From assembly GCA_902529715.1 (NCBI GenBank), contig CABZXL010000003.1:1-64000 (forward strand): 64,000 nucleotides of DNA. Direction: 5' to 3'. The notes beneath the pieces are model-generated. The model was not told the DNA's origin and ran no database searches. It saw only the letters and a list, made by a program, of their open reading frames with translations. Positions 38,426 through 45,953 of this stretch are shown piece by piece. The position numbers were made by a program, and so were the translations under genes. Origin of the DNA: an uncultured Pelagibacteraceae bacterium. GTDB taxonomy: Bacteria; Pseudomonadota; Alphaproteobacteria; Pelagibacterales; Pelagibacteraceae. Positions within the stretch are counted from its first letter, which is position 1. Each line of letters starts with the position of its first letter.

Positions 38426-39529
38426 TTAATAGAATGAAATTAATGATGACAATAATTTATGCTGATATCTCCAATTACCAAGTATATTAAAAGACATTGC
38501 GCATTCATAAGTACATTTACATTTTGATTTAATTATAAAATTTTTGATTTCTTTATTTTTTTCTGTATTCCAGAGTTTTAAAAAATCCATATCAAAATCT
38601 CTTAGGTCTCCAATTAGTTTATCTTCAAGTATTTCACAAGGATAAACTTTTCCATCTGGGGTTATAACGCCAAATAATGAAGATGCATGGCATGGGCTTA
38701 TATAGTTATTATTTTTATAAATTTTCTTTATTAAATCCCAAGAAATTTCATCCTTTTTATTATGAATTTTACCTTGAATTGTATTTGCATAGTTTACTAT
38801 TTTTTTCTGTTTCTGATATTCTTTTATTTTATTAGTAAGCCAGTCGTAGGCATTCAAAATTTGTTCAACTTTTTCTTTAGGTCTAGTATAAACACCCTCG
38901 TCTCTAACAAGACAACATTTAATAGAGTCAATTTTACAATCTTCAGTAAAATAATAAAAAATTTCTTTTATATTTGAACAATTTTCATGTGTAACTGTAA
39001 TACTTACTGAAGCATTTATATTTGGATTATTTAACTTTTTAATTATTTCATAGCTTTTAATACAATCGTTAAATAGATTTTTTATTTTTCTTACCGCATT
39101 GTGTTTTTCAGGAAGATCATCAATTGAGATTTGAAAATTAACTTCTATATCTTTATTAAACTTTGCTATTTCTTCTGCAAAAAATTTTATTCTATCTGGC
39201 AAACTTCCATTTGTTGTTACATAAATTGACTGTATGCTTGTATTTTTTATATATAACTTAGCTATCTCAACTATATCTTTTCTTGCAAATGGCTCTCCTC
39301 CTGTAAAGTTAACATTTAATAAAGTATCACCCATATTTTTTGTCATTTTTTCTATTTCTTCTAGTGTAAGTTCACCTTTAAATGTTTTTGGATTATCAAA
39401 ATCAATAAAACAAAAAGAACATCTTGCGTTACATCTATTTGTAAGAAAATGAATTAGGCTTACAGGTGTTTTTTTTTTAAAGTAAATATTATTTACAACT
39501 TTTGAAAATTTTGCTTTTTTTGTTATCAA
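38426..39529 (-). CDS. Radical SAM/SPASM-type protein
   Basis: HFLTNRCNARCSFCFIDFD (CxxxCxxC), NFTGGEPFARKDI, C-terminal CHASSLFG..GKVYPCE...CKCTYECA. Confidence 0.9.
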   Translation of the reverse strand: MITKKAKFSKVVNNIYFKKKTPVSLIHFLTNRCNARCSFCFIDFDNPKTFKGELTLEEIEKMTKNMGDTLLNVNFTGGEPFARKDIVEIAKLYIKNTSIQSIYVTTNGSLPDRIKFFAEEIAKFNKDIEVNFQISIDDLPEKHNAVRKIKNLFNDCIKSYEIIKKLNNPNINASVSITVTHENCSNIKEIFYYFTEDCKIDSIKCCLVRDEGVYTRPKEKVEQILNAYDWLTNKIKEYQKQKKIVNYANTIQGKIHNKKDEISWDLIKKIYKNNNYISPCHASSLFGVITPDGKVYPCEILEDKLIGDLRDFDMDFLKLWNTEKNKEIKNFIIKSKCKCTYECAMSFNILGNWRYQHKLLSSLISFY

Positions 39530-39530
39530 T

Positions 39531-40514
39531 TTATTTTTGTGTATATAGTTTTTTAATTATGTAGTCTTTTAATAATATGCTGGAAACAAATCCAATACCA
39601 GGCATAAAAATACTAATAAATGTTAATTTTAAACTTTTAAAAAAATTACTAGAATAGTTAATTTTAAATGCATTTATTAAACAAACAATAAAAATAAATA
39701 ATAAGCCTAAAATATAAATATTTAAGTAAAATTCACTTAAAAAAATTAAAGGGAACATTAAGATAAATATAAATGGTAAGGATGAAATTAGCAAAAGAAA
39801 ACTCTCTAAACAAGGAAATTTTAAAAATGTTCTTAAACCAGTTGATCCATATACAAATCTTTGTCGAGCAAAATGTTTAAAATTTCTATCTTTATGAAAA
39901 ACATAAATACTTGGGCAAAACATAATTTTATAACCTAATTTTCGTATATTTTTATTCAAAGAAATTTCCTCACCAGAATATAAATTTTCATACATTCCTT
40001 TAACTTTTTTATATAAATCAGTTCTAACAATCAAATTACAACTTGGTAAAAAATTAACATAACATTCTTTATTCTCTCGATTGCTTTTTGTAATTGTATT
40101 TAAGGTAACAAAAGATAACTTCCTTGATCTTGATACTAATTTTTTTTCTATATCTTTAGTTTTAGGAGATAAATTTGGCCCTCCTACAGCGCCTAATTTT
40201 TTATATTTTTTAAATAATTTATGAACATCATTAAGCCAAAAGGATTTGGGATATGCATCACTATCAATAAAACAAACAAATCTTGTTTTGCAATTTTTTA
40301 CAGCTAAATTTCTTTTAAAACCAATTGTTTCATTTCCTGAAACAAAAATTTTTATTTTATTATCTTTTTTAAAATTTTGATATTTATCTAGAATTAAAAA
40401 TATTTTTATTTTTTTATAATATTTTCTTATATTTTTTATACAAAAACTTAAATTTTGATCATAAGATCTAGAGGGTATAATTACGGTTATGTCTTTTTCT
40501 ACAGACTTGGTCAC
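39531..40514 (-). CDS. Glycosyltransferase family 2 with C-terminal TM segments
   Basis: VIIPSRSYDQNL, CFIDSDAYPKSFWL, GGPNLSP. Confidence 0.87.
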   Translation of the reverse strand: MTKSVEKDITVIIPSRSYDQNLSFCIKNIRKYYKKIKIFLILDKYQNFKKDNKIKIFVSGNETIGFKRNLAVKNCKTRFVCFIDSDAYPKSFWLNDVHKLFKKYKKLGAVGGPNLSPKTKDIEKKLVSRSRKLSFVTLNTITKSNRENKECYVNFLPSCNLIVRTDLYKKVKGMYENLYSGEEISLNKNIRKLGYKIMFCPSIYVFHKDRNFKHFARQRFVYGSTGLRTFLKFPCLESFLLLISSLPFIFILMFPLIFLSEFYLNIYILGLLFIFIVCLINAFKINYSSNFFKSLKLTFISIFMPGIGFVSSILLKDYIIKKLYTQK

Positions 40515-40599: not shown

Positions 40600-41301
40600 A
40601 TGTCAAATTTAAAATTATCAATAATTATACCTATTTACAATGAAGAGAAAACAATAATACAAACATTAAAGAGAATTAAAGAAACAAATAATAATAAAAT
40701 AAATTATGAAACAATAGTAATTAATGATGGTTCAAAAGATGGTACTTTAGATTTATTAAAATCACATAGTGATCTTTATGATCATTTAATTGATTATAAT
40801 AATAATTCAGGAAAAGGATATGCGGTTAAAAAAGGATTAGAGGCATCTACGGGTGATTATATAATTTTTCAAGATGCCGATTTGGAATATGATCCAAAAG
40901 ATTTTTCTAAATTTATTGATTTAATTAATAATCAAAATGTAGATGGTATTATAGGATCGAGATTTGTTTATAGCGGATTTACTAGATCACACAGTTTTCT
41001 AAATAAAATAGGAAATCATATATTAACATTTATTTTTAACGCTTTGTACAATACAACTTTCACAGATATATATTCTTGTTATTATTGTTATAGAAAAAAT
41101 TTATTAAATCATGAAAATTTAAAAACCTTTGGCTTTGAACAACACGCAGAAATCTTGTGCAAAACTATTAAGAATGGTAAATTTTTTTATGAAGTTCCAA
41201 TAAGCTACAATGGCCGCACTCATGATGAGGGGAAAAAAATTAAATTCTACCATTTTTTTTCAGTATTATTCAGAATTATTATGGAAAGAATATCTTTTTA
41301 A
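40600..41301 (+). CDS. Glycosyltransferase family 2 (polyprenyl-phosphate glycosyltransferase-like)
   Basis: SIIIPIYNEEKTIIQTLKRI, INDGSKDGT, GYAVKKGLEASTGDYIIFQDADLEYDP, IIGSRF. Confidence 0.93.
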   Translation: MSNLKLSIIIPIYNEEKTIIQTLKRIKETNNNKINYETIVINDGSKDGTLDLLKSHSDLYDHLIDYNNNSGKGYAVKKGLEASTGDYIIFQDADLEYDPKDFSKFIDLINNQNVDGIIGSRFVYSGFTRSHSFLNKIGNHILTFIFNALYNTTFTDIYSCYYCYRKNLLNHENLKTFGFEQHAEILCKTIKNGKFFYEVPISYNGRTHDEGKKIKFYHFFSVLFRIIMERISF

Positions 41302-41307
41302 TTAATT

Positions 41308-43869
41308 ATGACAAAAAAAATTGTCATTGTTGGCGCTCTTGGATATTTAGGAACAGAACTGTGTAAAATCTACTCGGGTGAAAGTTGGCGTAATAAAATC
41401 ATAGCTCTAGATGATCGCTTTATTTCTGAAAGAGTAAGCCAATTAAAAGATTGGAATATAGAATTTTTTCAAGGTCACATTTTAGATAATAAGTTTTTAA
41501 ATAAACATTTAAATAATGCTGATGTTGTTCACCATTTAGCAGGTGTAACAGATGTAGCTTATACAAAAACAGAGGCAAATTCTGAATTAGATGAAAGAAT
41601 AAGATCAATAGCAATAGATGGAACTAATAATATTTTAAAAAATATTCCTAATAATTGTAAAATAATTTTTCCATCTACACATGTTGTTTTTGAAGGATTT
41701 GAACATGCAAAAGAAAATATTTTAGAAAATGAGCCTCCTCGACCTATTTTGATGTATTCAAAAAGTAAGGTTCAAAATGAAATTGATATAAAAAACTCAA
41801 ATAATGATTACGTAATTTTACGACTTGGCTCAGTCTATGGATATTCTTTAGATACTATGCGTATAAATATAATGCCAAACCTATTTTCTAAAATTACATC
41901 TCAAAATGGAACGATTAAACTATTCTCGGGCGGCAAGCAGTTAAAAAGTCTTGTTAATTTAATTGATGTTGTAAGATGCATGAAGTTTGTTGAAGAAAAC
42001 CAAAAAATAAAGAAAGAAATTTTTCATTTAGTTAACGAACAAACAACAGTAAAAAAAGTAGCAGAAATTTGTAAAAAAATTAATCCAAAAATTAAAATAG
42101 AAGTCACAAATGATGAAGCTCCAAATAAAGGTTATACTTTATCAAATAAAAAATTATTGAATACAGGATTTAAATTTCTTTATAACGTTCAAGATTCAAT
42201 TAAACAAATGATTCATCAATGGTCATTTAGAAAAGATAATAATAACTTAGAGCATATTTTTAAAGGAGAAAATGAGTTCATAGACTCAAGGGGTAAAATA
42301 AGTAATTATGAGCTGCCAGAACCTATAAATTTAATTGGATACATAGAATCTAAAAAAGGAACAGTTAGAGCTAATCACTTTCATCCAATTCAAGAACAAA
42401 AATGTTTGCTTGTTAAGGGTCAATTTATAAGTGTTTACAAAGATTTAATTAATAATAAATCACATCGAGTAACACATATTGTAAATGAAGGAGAACTAAT
42501 AGTCACTAAACCAAATGTTGCTCACTCTATGGTTTTTACAAAAGATTCTATATTCCTAAATTTGGTTAGAGGCGAAAGAGAACATAAAAATTATGGAATA
42601 ACTCATACACTTCCTTACGAGTTAGTAAATAATATAGATCGGATTAACTTATTAAATATTTATAAATTTAATTGTAGATGTTGTAATAATGAAAAACTTA
42701 AAAGAGTAGTTTCATTAGGATTTCAGCCATTAGCAAATAACTTAATGAAATCAAAAAATGATAGAGTTGATCTTTATCCTTTAGAAATGAATTATTGCTC
42801 AAAATGTCATAACTGTCAGCTTTCAGTAAATATTGAGCCAAAAAAAATGTTTTCAAATTATCTTTATTTATCTTCAACTTCAGAAACATTTAAACAACAT
42901 TTTAAAAAAGCAGCTAAACAGTATGTTAAAGATTTTAAACTTTCACCTAAAAAATCGTATGTTATTGATATTGGTAGTAATGATGGTGTAGGTTTAAAAC
43001 CATTTAAAGATTTAAACTTCAAACATCTTCTAGGAATTGAACCTGCAAAAAACTTAGCAAAGCTTGCTAATAAAAATAAGATAAAAACATTTAATGGTTT
43101 TTTAAATAAAAAAAATCTAAAGAAAATTAAAAGAAATGCTGACATTATTCTAGCATCTAATGTGTTTGCACATTCTGATGATTTAAAAACTATGGCTGAA
43201 TGTATGCTTAAGCTATTAAAAAAAAATGGAACTATTATTATAGAAATCCAGTATCTAATAAATACTTTGAAAGATTTAACTTTTGATAATATTTATCATG
43301 AACATTACAACTACTGGTCATTAACCTCCCTAAAATATTTTTTTAATCAATTTAGTGCAAAAATTTTTAAAGCTGAAAAAATTAATACACACGGAGGATC
43401 TTTAAGAATTTATGTTACTAAAAATATAAATAAGAAGGATGATAAAAGTATAAAAAAAATTATAAAAGAGGAAGAAAGATTTGGAATTAGAAAATTTGAA
43501 ACTTACAAAAAATTTGGTGAAAAAATTTATAAAATAAGAAAAAATTTTTTAAAAAATATAGATAAAATTAAAAATAATAATCAAAAAATTATAGGTTATG
43601 GATCGCCAGCAAAGGCTACTACAGCTTTAAATTTCTTTGGTATTTCTAAGGAAATTGAATATATCATTGAAGATAATAAGCTAAAACAAGGAAAATATCT
43701 CCCAGGAGTTAAAATACCAATTCTAAATAATAAAAAAAAATTTAATAAGAATTCTTCATTATTAATTCTTGCATGGAATTTTTTTGATGAAATAAAAAAA
43801 AAGAATGAAAAATTTTTTAAACACATCATTAATATCAAAAATTTAGAAAAGGATAATTTTTTTAAATGA
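41308..43869 (+). CDS. Three-domain sugar-modifying fusion: NAD-dependent epimerase/reductase + cupin + NovU/TylC3-like C-methyltransferase
   Basis: GALGYLGTELCKIY Rossmann; VRANHFHPIQEQKCLLVKGQF cupin; CRCCNNEKLKRVVSLGFQPLANNL...CSKCHNCQL and VIDIGSNDGVGLKPF methyltransferase. Confidence 0.88.
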   Translation: MTKKIVIVGALGYLGTELCKIYSGESWRNKIIALDDRFISERVSQLKDWNIEFFQGHILDNKFLNKHLNNADVVHHLAGVTDVAYTKTEANSELDERIRSIAIDGTNNILKNIPNNCKIIFPSTHVVFEGFEHAKENILENEPPRPILMYSKSKVQNEIDIKNSNNDYVILRLGSVYGYSLDTMRINIMPNLFSKITSQNGTIKLFSGGKQLKSLVNLIDVVRCMKFVEENQKIKKEIFHLVNEQTTVKKVAEICKKINPKIKIEVTNDEAPNKGYTLSNKKLLNTGFKFLYNVQDSIKQMIHQWSFRKDNNNLEHIFKGENEFIDSRGKISNYELPEPINLIGYIESKKGTVRANHFHPIQEQKCLLVKGQFISVYKDLINNKSHRVTHIVNEGELIVTKPNVAHSMVFTKDSIFLNLVRGEREHKNYGITHTLPYELVNNIDRINLLNIYKFNCRCCNNEKLKRVVSLGFQPLANNLMKSKNDRVDLYPLEMNYCSKCHNCQLSVNIEPKKMFSNYLYLSSTSETFKQHFKKAAKQYVKDFKLSPKKSYVIDIGSNDGVGLKPFKDLNFKHLLGIEPAKNLAKLANKNKIKTFNGFLNKKNLKKIKRNADIILASNVFAHSDDLKTMAECMLKLLKKNGTIIIEIQYLINTLKDLTFDNIYHEHYNYWSLTSLKYFFNQFSAKIFKAEKINTHGGSLRIYVTKNINKKDDKSIKKIIKEEERFGIRKFETYKKFGEKIYKIRKNFLKNIDKIKNNNQKIIGYGSPAKATTALNFFGISKEIEYIIEDNKLKQGKYLPGVKIPILNNKKKFNKNSSLLILAWNFFDEIKKKNEKFFKHIINIKNLEKDNFFK

Positions 43870-44646
43870 GTCTAAAAAAAATAATTGATAAGGAACTTTT
43901 TTTTATTATTTTAATAATTTTTATTATTCTTATATTTATTAAAAATATAAACTTTTTTCAAAAACTTATATTTTCTTCCAAATTTAGATTTTGAAGAAAG
44001 AATAACTACCAAAGTTTATAATTATTGTAACAATGAATCTGTTGGATATGTTCACGATATAAAAAAAAAATTTAATATAACAAATAATCCAAAGGTTATA
44101 AATTTTGATATACACCCTGATCCAAGCTGGGTATTTCTTAATACTTCAAAACCAAAGAGTGATAAGTATTTAATAGTTCTAAATTATATAGAAAATCCCA
44201 ATATTTTTTTTCATAAGACAAATAAAATTTTTAGAGGTGAAAAAATATTAAATGCAGCTGGGATAAAAGAAATCCAATTTTTATCCAAATATAAAAAACC
44301 AATTAAAATTAATGGTAATTTACACTTATACCAAGTTAAAGTTGGAACCTTTAATTTTAAAAATTTCGATGAATTAGAAAAAAATAATTTTAAATTAAAA
44401 GAAATTTTTAAATTAAAATTAAATAAAGATAACTATGTTAATTCAAAATATTTAGTTAATAAAGAAATATCAGATTTTGGTGGAAGGGAAGTTTTAAACC
44501 TAATAAAAATTTTAGACAATCAAAATAACGAAATTGAAGAAATAGACAAAATTCAAGTAAGTTTAATAAATCAAATTTCACTTAATAACTATCAAATATT
44601 AGATAATTTTAAAAATAAATGTTTATATTTAAAAAAAAATGGATGA
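43866..44646 (+). pseudogene. Frameshifted membrane-anchored protein of unknown function
   Basis: Frame 43866 (MSLKKIIDKELFFIILIIFIILIFIKNINFFQK...) stops after about 43 codons; the continuing ORF ...FLPNLDFEERITTKVYNYCNNESVGYVHDIKKKF...LYLKKNG* lies in another frame; shift between 43951 and 43996. Confidence 0.65.
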
Positions 44647-45953
44647 AATAATTAAAATTTTGTTTCAAATTGGATTGATATTATTTATTTTTTTAATTCC
44701 AATTTTTAAACTTAACTCAAATAATACTTTGAGTTTAAAAAATGCAACAACACTAGATCAAACTTTTTTTAATTTTATTATTTTAATAAATTTAATACTA
44801 TTTTTATCTTTTTTTTTAGTTTTAAAATATCTTCAATAATTTTTTATAATTTCCTTTTTTATATTGGCATCATTAATTTATAATTTAGTTTTAAAGTATA
44901 ATTTTTTAGGAAGCTTAGAATATAAGTTAAAGCTATTTTTTTTTACAATATTTTTTATTTTAATTTCTTTTGACTTATTATTTAATCTTGAGCTTGGCTG
45001 GGATGCACAAAAATTATGGTTTCCAAAAGTTTTAAATTTTTATCAAGGAAATACTATTGCCAATCTTGAAACACTTCTTTGGCCAGAATATCCATTTTTA
45101 GGTTCACTACTATGGGCTTTTTTTTGGAAAATTAGTTTTTTCTGAATATGAATATCTTGGAAGATTAATCTATGTATTTATTTTTTGTTTATCTATTTTT
45201 TCTATTAGTGAAATTTTGAAATTATCTTTTATAAAACAAATGTTATTTGCTTCTTTAAGCATTTTGCTTATTTACAATTACAATTTGTTTAATGGATATC
45301 AAGAAATAATAATTTTTTCTTTGGTAATTTTGGCTGCAAAATATTCTTATTTAATTATTTTAGAAAAAAAGCTAGATATTTTTTATTTAATATTTCTTTT
45401 ATTAATATTTAATTCTATTATTTGGATAAAAAATGAAGGTATATTTATTTCATTATTTTTATTTTTTAATATTTTTTTATTCTCAAAATATAAATTAAAA
45501 CATAAATTAATTTCTTTATTTATTTTAATTTTATTAATTGCTTTAAGATTGTTGATTTTTAAATTTTATAATTTTGAAATAAGTTTACAACCAGGCTCAT
45601 ATAATAATTTTTCTCTAAGTGAAATATTTAATAAAATTAGTATTGATAGGTTAAGTATAATTTATAAATATTTGATACAAAGTATTTTTAAAAATTATTT
45701 AGTATTGTTAAGTCTACTATTTATTTTATTTTATTTTATTAAAAAGAAAAATTTTAAAAATATCAATTTCGTATTATTTTACTTCTTTCTAAATATTGTA
45801 TTTATTAATTTTGCATATTTATTAACTGATTTACCAATAGAGTTTGCGGCTAAAAGCGGCACACATAGATTAATGTTTGAGTTTTCTGGATATTATTTGC
45901 TGTTCATAATAATTTTTCTAAATGAATTTTGTAAACAAAGTAAAAAAAATTAG
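44639..45953 (+). pseudogene. Interrupted polytopic membrane protein (possible glycosyltransferase/polymerase-like)
   Basis: Fragments 44639-44839 and 44864-45145 are in the same frame, separated by TAA; reading then shifts frame near the T8 run (45118-45125) into 45216-45953, with open sequence upstream of the called start. Confidence 0.65.

Follow-up and report, generated by a model that had tools for sequence, protein, structure and literature searches.

Can a single polypeptide convert an ordinary nucleotide sugar into a C-methylated one? The question is raised by a gene in the window, the 64,000-nucleotide stretch of DNA from an uncultured Pelagibacteraceae bacterium that we analysed, which joins an SDR, a cupin and a C-methyltransferase (MT) in one chain. 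SAR11 bacteria outnumber every other bacterial group in the sea, yet their surface glycans are almost unknown. We propose, with a probability of about 0.55, that the fused protein is a self-contained assembly line for a C-methylated (branched) nucleotide sugar, in which the SDR supplies its own 4-ketone. A conserved three-in-one enzyme that occupies one locus (lon–nuo) in many lineages and is common to T4-like phages predicts a specific branched sugar to look for, and points to surface chemistry over which SAR11 and its phages compete. If the proposal is true, the self-contained fusion would also be of use as a C-methylating catalyst, as branched sugars normally require several separate enzymes.

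Three modules in one reading frame

The ORF lies on the + strand at 41308..43869, from an ATG at 41308 to a stop that ends at 43869, and encodes 853 residues with no internal stop. Specifically, it comprises an NAD-type extended SDR (residues 1–310; 41308..42237, +), a CapF/FdtA-like sugar cupin (residues 312–448; 42241..42651, +) and a TylC3/TcaB9/MtmC-type C-methyltransferase (residues 455–838; 42670..43821, +). The original prediction had named these three parts of one 853-residue polypeptide and placed their limits correctly to within about 10 residues, and its assignment is borne out by the ORF reading, Pfam, a cupin profile and an AlphaFold model. The model (pLDDT 87.4, pTM 0.64) contains three folded units and matches MtmC, TcaB9 and KijD1 in its C-terminal part, Cj1427 in the SDR, and CapF in the SDR and cupin together. 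Among 56 aligned fused proteins, Y150 and K154 of the SDR, H357, H359 and H406 of the cupin, and Y518, H622, Y663, E665 and H666 of the MT are invariant, with S123 and T124 of the SDR nearly so; a loss of catalytic residues, which had been raised as an objection, can be set aside, as they are conserved in all three domains.

In the MT, the Methyltransf_13 zinc domain (PF08421; residues 456–515, 1.1e-13) and the C-terminal Methyltransf_14 domain (PF08484; residues 694–838, 1.2e-41) flank the SAM fold (Methyltransf_23; residues 540–681, 8e-13), all three above the Pfam cut-off. The SAM domain bears the DIGSNDG motif, and the zinc cysteines are conserved. The closest PDB entries are MtmC (4rv9, 3.1e-60) and TcaB9 (6e-44). 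Mapped by alignment with the Y76F mutant entry and by PDB titles naming H181, Y222, E224 and H225, the catalytic residues Y76, H181, Y222, E224 and H225 of TcaB9 correspond to Y518, H622, Y663, E665 and H666 here, all conserved, and YHEH is present in 72/72 fused sequences. The predicted NovU/TylC3 assignment is thus upheld, the enzyme being of the TylC3 type. TcaB9/MtmC-type enzymes use SAM to methylate the carbon adjacent to a ketone, C3 or C5 of an NDP-4-keto sugar. TcaB9, KijD1, MtmC and TylC3, whose zinc, SAM and C-terminal domains and catalytic residues the MT shares, act on dTDP sugars in antibiotic pathways as free-standing enzymes; in SAR11 and phages, the MT is instead fused to an SDR and a cupin that precede it.

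Within the whole protein the cupin falls short of the Pfam cut-offs, and on its own it matches PF14667 (2.7e-4) and Cupin_2 (0.003), both under cut-off. A profile of 14 sequences, separate homologues included, matches CapF (2zkl/4yrd, 2e-7), FdtA (2pa7, 1.4e-6) and QdtA in the PDB, with oxalate decarboxylases outranking CapF by whole-protein score via two weaker stretches each. In the separate cupins of alphaproteobacteria and viruses, too, H357, H359 and H406 are invariant. The analogy drawn earlier to CapF (Cap5F of Staphylococcus aureus) holds both for the order of SDR and cupin in one chain and for a CapF-type cupin with its His cluster, as seen in the profile and in a fold match that covers both domains. 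CapF, which acts on a 4-keto nucleotide sugar, differs in having no MT, in an SDR that is not the nearest relative of the fused one, and in the relative placement of SDR and cupin (rmsd 15.5 over the pair against the AlphaFold model). The cupin is too divergent for its reaction to be named.

A scan of 84,980 species genomes yields 80 loci (L004–L083), every one of them from SAR11 (Pelagibacteraceae/Pelagibacterales), and the gene is a single ORF in 80/80, mostly full length. In 397 genomes sampled from the family, the matches listed include more than 140 that cover nearly the whole query. In pairs of close relatives, dN/dS is 0.01–0.15 in each of the three domains, in SAR11 and in phages, and all three domains are under purifying selection. 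That the ORF is a sequencing or assembly fusion of separate genes, or a decayed protein, is hardly conceivable: nothing speaks for it directly, although the adjacent stretch 43866–45953 does look broken, and it is ruled out by the same single ORF in 80/80 independent SAR11 loci, 42 IMG/VR contigs and a 642-kb phage genome, together with the dN/dS values.

Outside SAR11, searches with parts of the protein in thin samples of 385 genomes of the class and 399 of the phylum reveal no full fusion, and no plasmid match covers more than 80% of the query. Other alphaproteobacteria encode the cupin and MT in two adjacent genes, sometimes followed by another SDR and by an oxidoreductase that we take, from our reading of its sequence, to be of the Gfo/Idh type. 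Large open frames at MT matches in these bacteria (L150–L157) contain no SDR or cupin in frame and are probably long frames of GC-rich DNA. Each module is a known kind of enzyme; judged against the PHROGs families and open-access papers searched, the novelty lies in the order of the three, in the presence of this order across SAR11 and T4-like phages and, possibly, in a self-contained redox step. Open-access papers contain, as far as our search of them goes, no account of such an SDR-cupin-MT fusion, which is weak evidence. The predicted structure of a 743-residue "Methyltransferase" of Klosneuvirus KNV1 (A0A1V0SJ68) matches nearly the whole model over 866 alignment columns, so the architecture may not be unique; it differs in its 21% identity, its poor overall superposition (rmsd 23) and its origin in a virus of a eukaryote.

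Source of the 4-ketone

The SDR matches Pfam Epimerase (PF01370; residues 5–233, 2.9e-19) and bears the motifs GALGYLG, S123-T124-H125-V126 and Y150xxxK154. D35, an NAD-type aspartate at the end of beta-2, is invariant and, judged from sequence, fits an NAD(H) cofactor. Where dehydratases have TxE/TDE, SxHV (STHV or SSHV) stands in 71/72 fused sequences; the corresponding residues of GMD are T126 and E128 (PMC3539893). Because the catalytic Glu of this motif is absent, a role of the SDR as a 4,6-dehydratase (RmlB, GMD) is rejected, and its score is far under the TIGR01181 cut-off.

By sequence (3.3e-18), profile (3.9e-30) and fold (3.7e-24), the closest solved relative of the SDR in the PDB is Cj1427 (6vo6), a C4-dehydrogenase of C. 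jejuni that shares the NAD-type aspartate and the S/T-Y-K residues. The match is full-length in sequence and fold, but with about 25% identity the two enzymes may differ in direction and substrate. The 60 best sequence-profile matches listed for the SDR in the PDB do not include CapF, and the SDR part is not closest to it. Cj1427 oxidizes C4 of GDP-heptose in an NAD-dependent manner, with tightly bound NADH that is recycled by alpha-ketoglutarate, and together with the C3/C5 epimerase Cj1430 and a C4-reductase it exemplifies a pathway in which a cupin epimerase acts after C4 oxidation and no dehydration takes place (PMC10680097). That system differs from the present one in its separate proteins, its lack of C-methylation and a cupin of the RmlC rather than the CapF/FdtA type, besides the low identity. 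The earlier view that the SDR would reduce or epimerise is not settled: its nearest solved relative is neither CapF nor a 4-ketoreductase but an NAD-dependent C4-dehydrogenase, which makes oxidation at C4 no less likely.

The gene content of one SAR11 genome bears on the same point. In G228 (92% complete), no GMD, RmlB or CapE/WbpM-type dehydratase is found, and the only two Epimerase-family SDRs are the fused gene and one without a nucleotide-sugar equivalog match above cut-off, although missing islands of an incomplete genome could hide a dehydratase. The closeness to Cj1427, the missing dehydratase glutamate, the NAD-type aspartate and the SDR content of G228 suggest that the SDR may make its own 4-ketosugar.

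In the pathway we propose, the SDR with its bound NAD would oxidize an ordinary nucleotide sugar at its C4 hydroxyl, giving a 4-ketone, and the His cluster of the cupin would act on this 4-keto sugar by C3 or C5 epimerisation or by a shift of the ketone. The MT would then take a proton adjacent to the ketone and add a methyl group from SAM, after which the ketone would be reduced by the SDR or another enzyme. Finally, a glycosyltransferase encoded next to the fused gene, GT17 in most SAR11 lineages and a DPM-like GT2 in the window, would use the branched sugar for a surface glycan. Of this pathway, we infer the chemistry and the sequence of its steps, as well as the nucleotide, the carbon that is methylated and the glycan that receives the sugar. 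The synthesis of a branched nucleotide sugar, as first predicted, remains the most likely overall function, on the strength of the domains and their conserved catalytic residues.

A different source of the ketone is conceivable, and we regard it as a tentative alternative. Here, as in noviose or mycarose pathways and close to the original prediction, a separate 4,6-dehydratase (RmlB/GMD) would supply an NDP-4-keto-6-deoxy sugar, the cupin would epimerise it, the MT methylate it, and the SDR only reduce C4 at the end. Noviose synthesis (novS-novW-novU) relies on the same three types of enzyme, a ketoreductase, a cupin epimerase and a C-methyltransferase, and in Bacillus the CDP-cillose/cereose pathway leads to C-methylated sugar products. 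Both systems, likened here by enzyme types and products, differ in their separate genes and their need for a 4,6-dehydratase. PMC7725333 names the Bacillus pathway. CapF works with an external supply through its SDR-cupin pair, the SDR matches RmlD models too, and at one locus (L140) a distant SDR homologue adjoins RmlA-like, RmlB-like and MT genes, which fits a 4-ketoreductase acting last. Against this, most known 4-ketoreductases use NADPH whereas the invariant D35 is of the NAD type, the closest solved relative is a C4-dehydrogenase, and G228 has no recognised dehydratase or other recognised nucleotide-sugar SDR.

The distribution of dehydratase genes speaks on both sides. Of 40 carrier genomes, 30 have an RmlB above cut-off, and 15/46 viral loci have GMD no more than 10 kb from the fused gene; conversely, RmlB is missing from 10 of the 40 carriers and GMD from 19. 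GMD (GDP-mannose 4,6-dehydratase) occurs in 21/40 carriers versus 34/40 non-carriers, a comparison that kinship confounds, and its role as an obligatory substrate supplier is not supported. The deoxysugar named in the original prediction presumes a 4,6-dehydratase; with an SDR that lacks the dehydratase glutamate and a GMD that is not positively associated with the gene, the 6-deoxy status of the product is unsupported.

A stronger form of the self-supplied pathway, in which one polypeptide carries out redox-neutral C-methylation of an undehydrated nucleotide sugar as a common SAR11 surface-glycan enzyme exchanged with T4-like phages, strikes us as rather doubtful. The SDR would then lend the C4 ketone with its bound NAD, the cupin and MT would use it, and the same SDR would return the hydride.

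Glycosyltransferases beside the fused gene

In 46/80 SAR11 loci, the fused gene is flanked by lon (after tig, clpP and clpX) on one side and the nuo operon on the other. A gene for a GT17 glycosyltransferase, divergent in most cases, is found less than 600 bp from it in 46 SAR11 loci, and a GT2 gene less than 600 bp upstream in 10 others (10/80); of the 76 loci whose upstream sequence is long enough, 56 have a GT17 or GT2 within 600 bp. Among genomes, GT17 is present in 36/40 carriers and 20/40 non-carriers, a difference that becomes small within the genus of the window (8/12 versus 20/40); we therefore use gene adjacency alone as evidence, and not genome co-occurrence.

In the window, the fused gene sits between tsaD and an EVE/acs block. 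Upstream of it, on the same strand, a GT2 glycosyltransferase resembling polyprenyl-phosphate-sugar (DPM-like) synthases (40600..41301, +; PF00535 1.5e-33), with homologues upstream in 10/80 loci, stops 6 nt short of the fused gene; its best NCBIfam match, AglJ, is under cut-off. This GT2 is likely to belong to the same operon and to use the product of the fused protein.

Farther upstream lie a second, divergent GT2 (39531..40514, −) and a radical SAM/SPASM protein (38426..39529, −), and homologues of this pair adjoin the fused gene in at least two further SAR11 genomes (L039, L064). This recurrence suggests that 38426–40514 is a mobile cassette for glycan synthesis that includes an unexplained radical SAM step. 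Directly 3′ of the fused gene, 43866–45953 holds overlapping stop-to-stop frames of membrane-protein character (43951–44646, 44633–44839, 44840–45145 and 45102–45953), without homologues in the retrieved loci. They resemble one or two membrane proteins that have been broken up, perhaps a glycosyltransferase of the GT-C type, and may reflect a pseudogene or assembly errors. Elsewhere in the same genome (G000 contig 1, 43000–62000, L141), a separate glycan region contains two more TylC3-family methyltransferases and a GT17.

Phage copies and the history of the fusion

Two scans of IMG/VR identify 42 viral contigs with an SDR-cupin-MT ORF, two of them cut by the contig end, and the viral copies are 52–59% identical to the window protein where measured. 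The 642-kb phage genome LR756502.1 also carries the fused gene (56% identity, tblastn), and no PHROGs family matches the fused protein. T4-like replication genes (DNA polymerase, clamp, clamp loader, SbcC-like, UvsX, DnaB-like helicase, ribonucleotide reductase) are present in 15/46 viral loci, while many others are putative glycan islands whose SDRs, NeuB-like genes and glycosyltransferases are named from sequence; GT17 lies within 3 kb of the fused gene in 13/46. In one T4-like phage lineage (L267, L273, L286, L290, L293, L295), the fused gene stands amid DNA-replication and nucleotide genes, with ribonucleotide reductase upstream, DNA polymerase downstream and no glycan island nearby. In phages, the same gene probably alters a glycan of the host or virion. 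LPS-related genes of SAR11 myophages have already been proposed to alter the host O-chain (PMC7029224), an idea to which the fused gene gives a testable chemical product.

In quick tree searches, with SH-aLRT as the only support measure, a single branch of the full-length tree parts the SAR11 from the viral proteins (support 100). In an MT-domain tree with outside sequences, all fused proteins form one clade (97), SAR11 beside the viruses, and lone or split MTs fall inside the viral clade. The SAR11 and viral fused proteins are thus sister clades in these trees, which do not polarise transfer. The MT-domain tree supports a single origin of the fusion, and the simplest reading is that this event was followed by fissions in phages.

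Some phages carry the modules apart: the SDR accompanies a cupin-MT protein in L298 and L314, an SDR-cupin protein accompanies the MT in L299, and the MT is alone after a different SDR in phages L303–L315, which shows that the cupin is dispensable in some settings. These arrangements indicate that the modules can work apart, and they are what might favour a scaffold that joins three enzymes from nucleotide-sugar pathways that are different or run in parallel, instead of enzymes for consecutive steps on a single substrate. We consider such a scaffold very improbable, as the same modules recur as adjacent genes and all three stay fused and constrained in nearly all SAR11 and in most of the viral copies found. 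The separate cupin-MT pairs of alphaproteobacteria, the split phage versions and the recurring SDR-MT pair tie the modules to one pathway.

In five phages (L303, L305, L306, L308, L315), the different SDR lies directly upstream of the lone MT, overlapping or nearly so, as a recurring two-gene unit. At L316 (9995–12651), an SDR-cupin protein 64–70% identical to that of the window precedes an MT from another subfamily, an arrangement that looks like an exchange of the MT.
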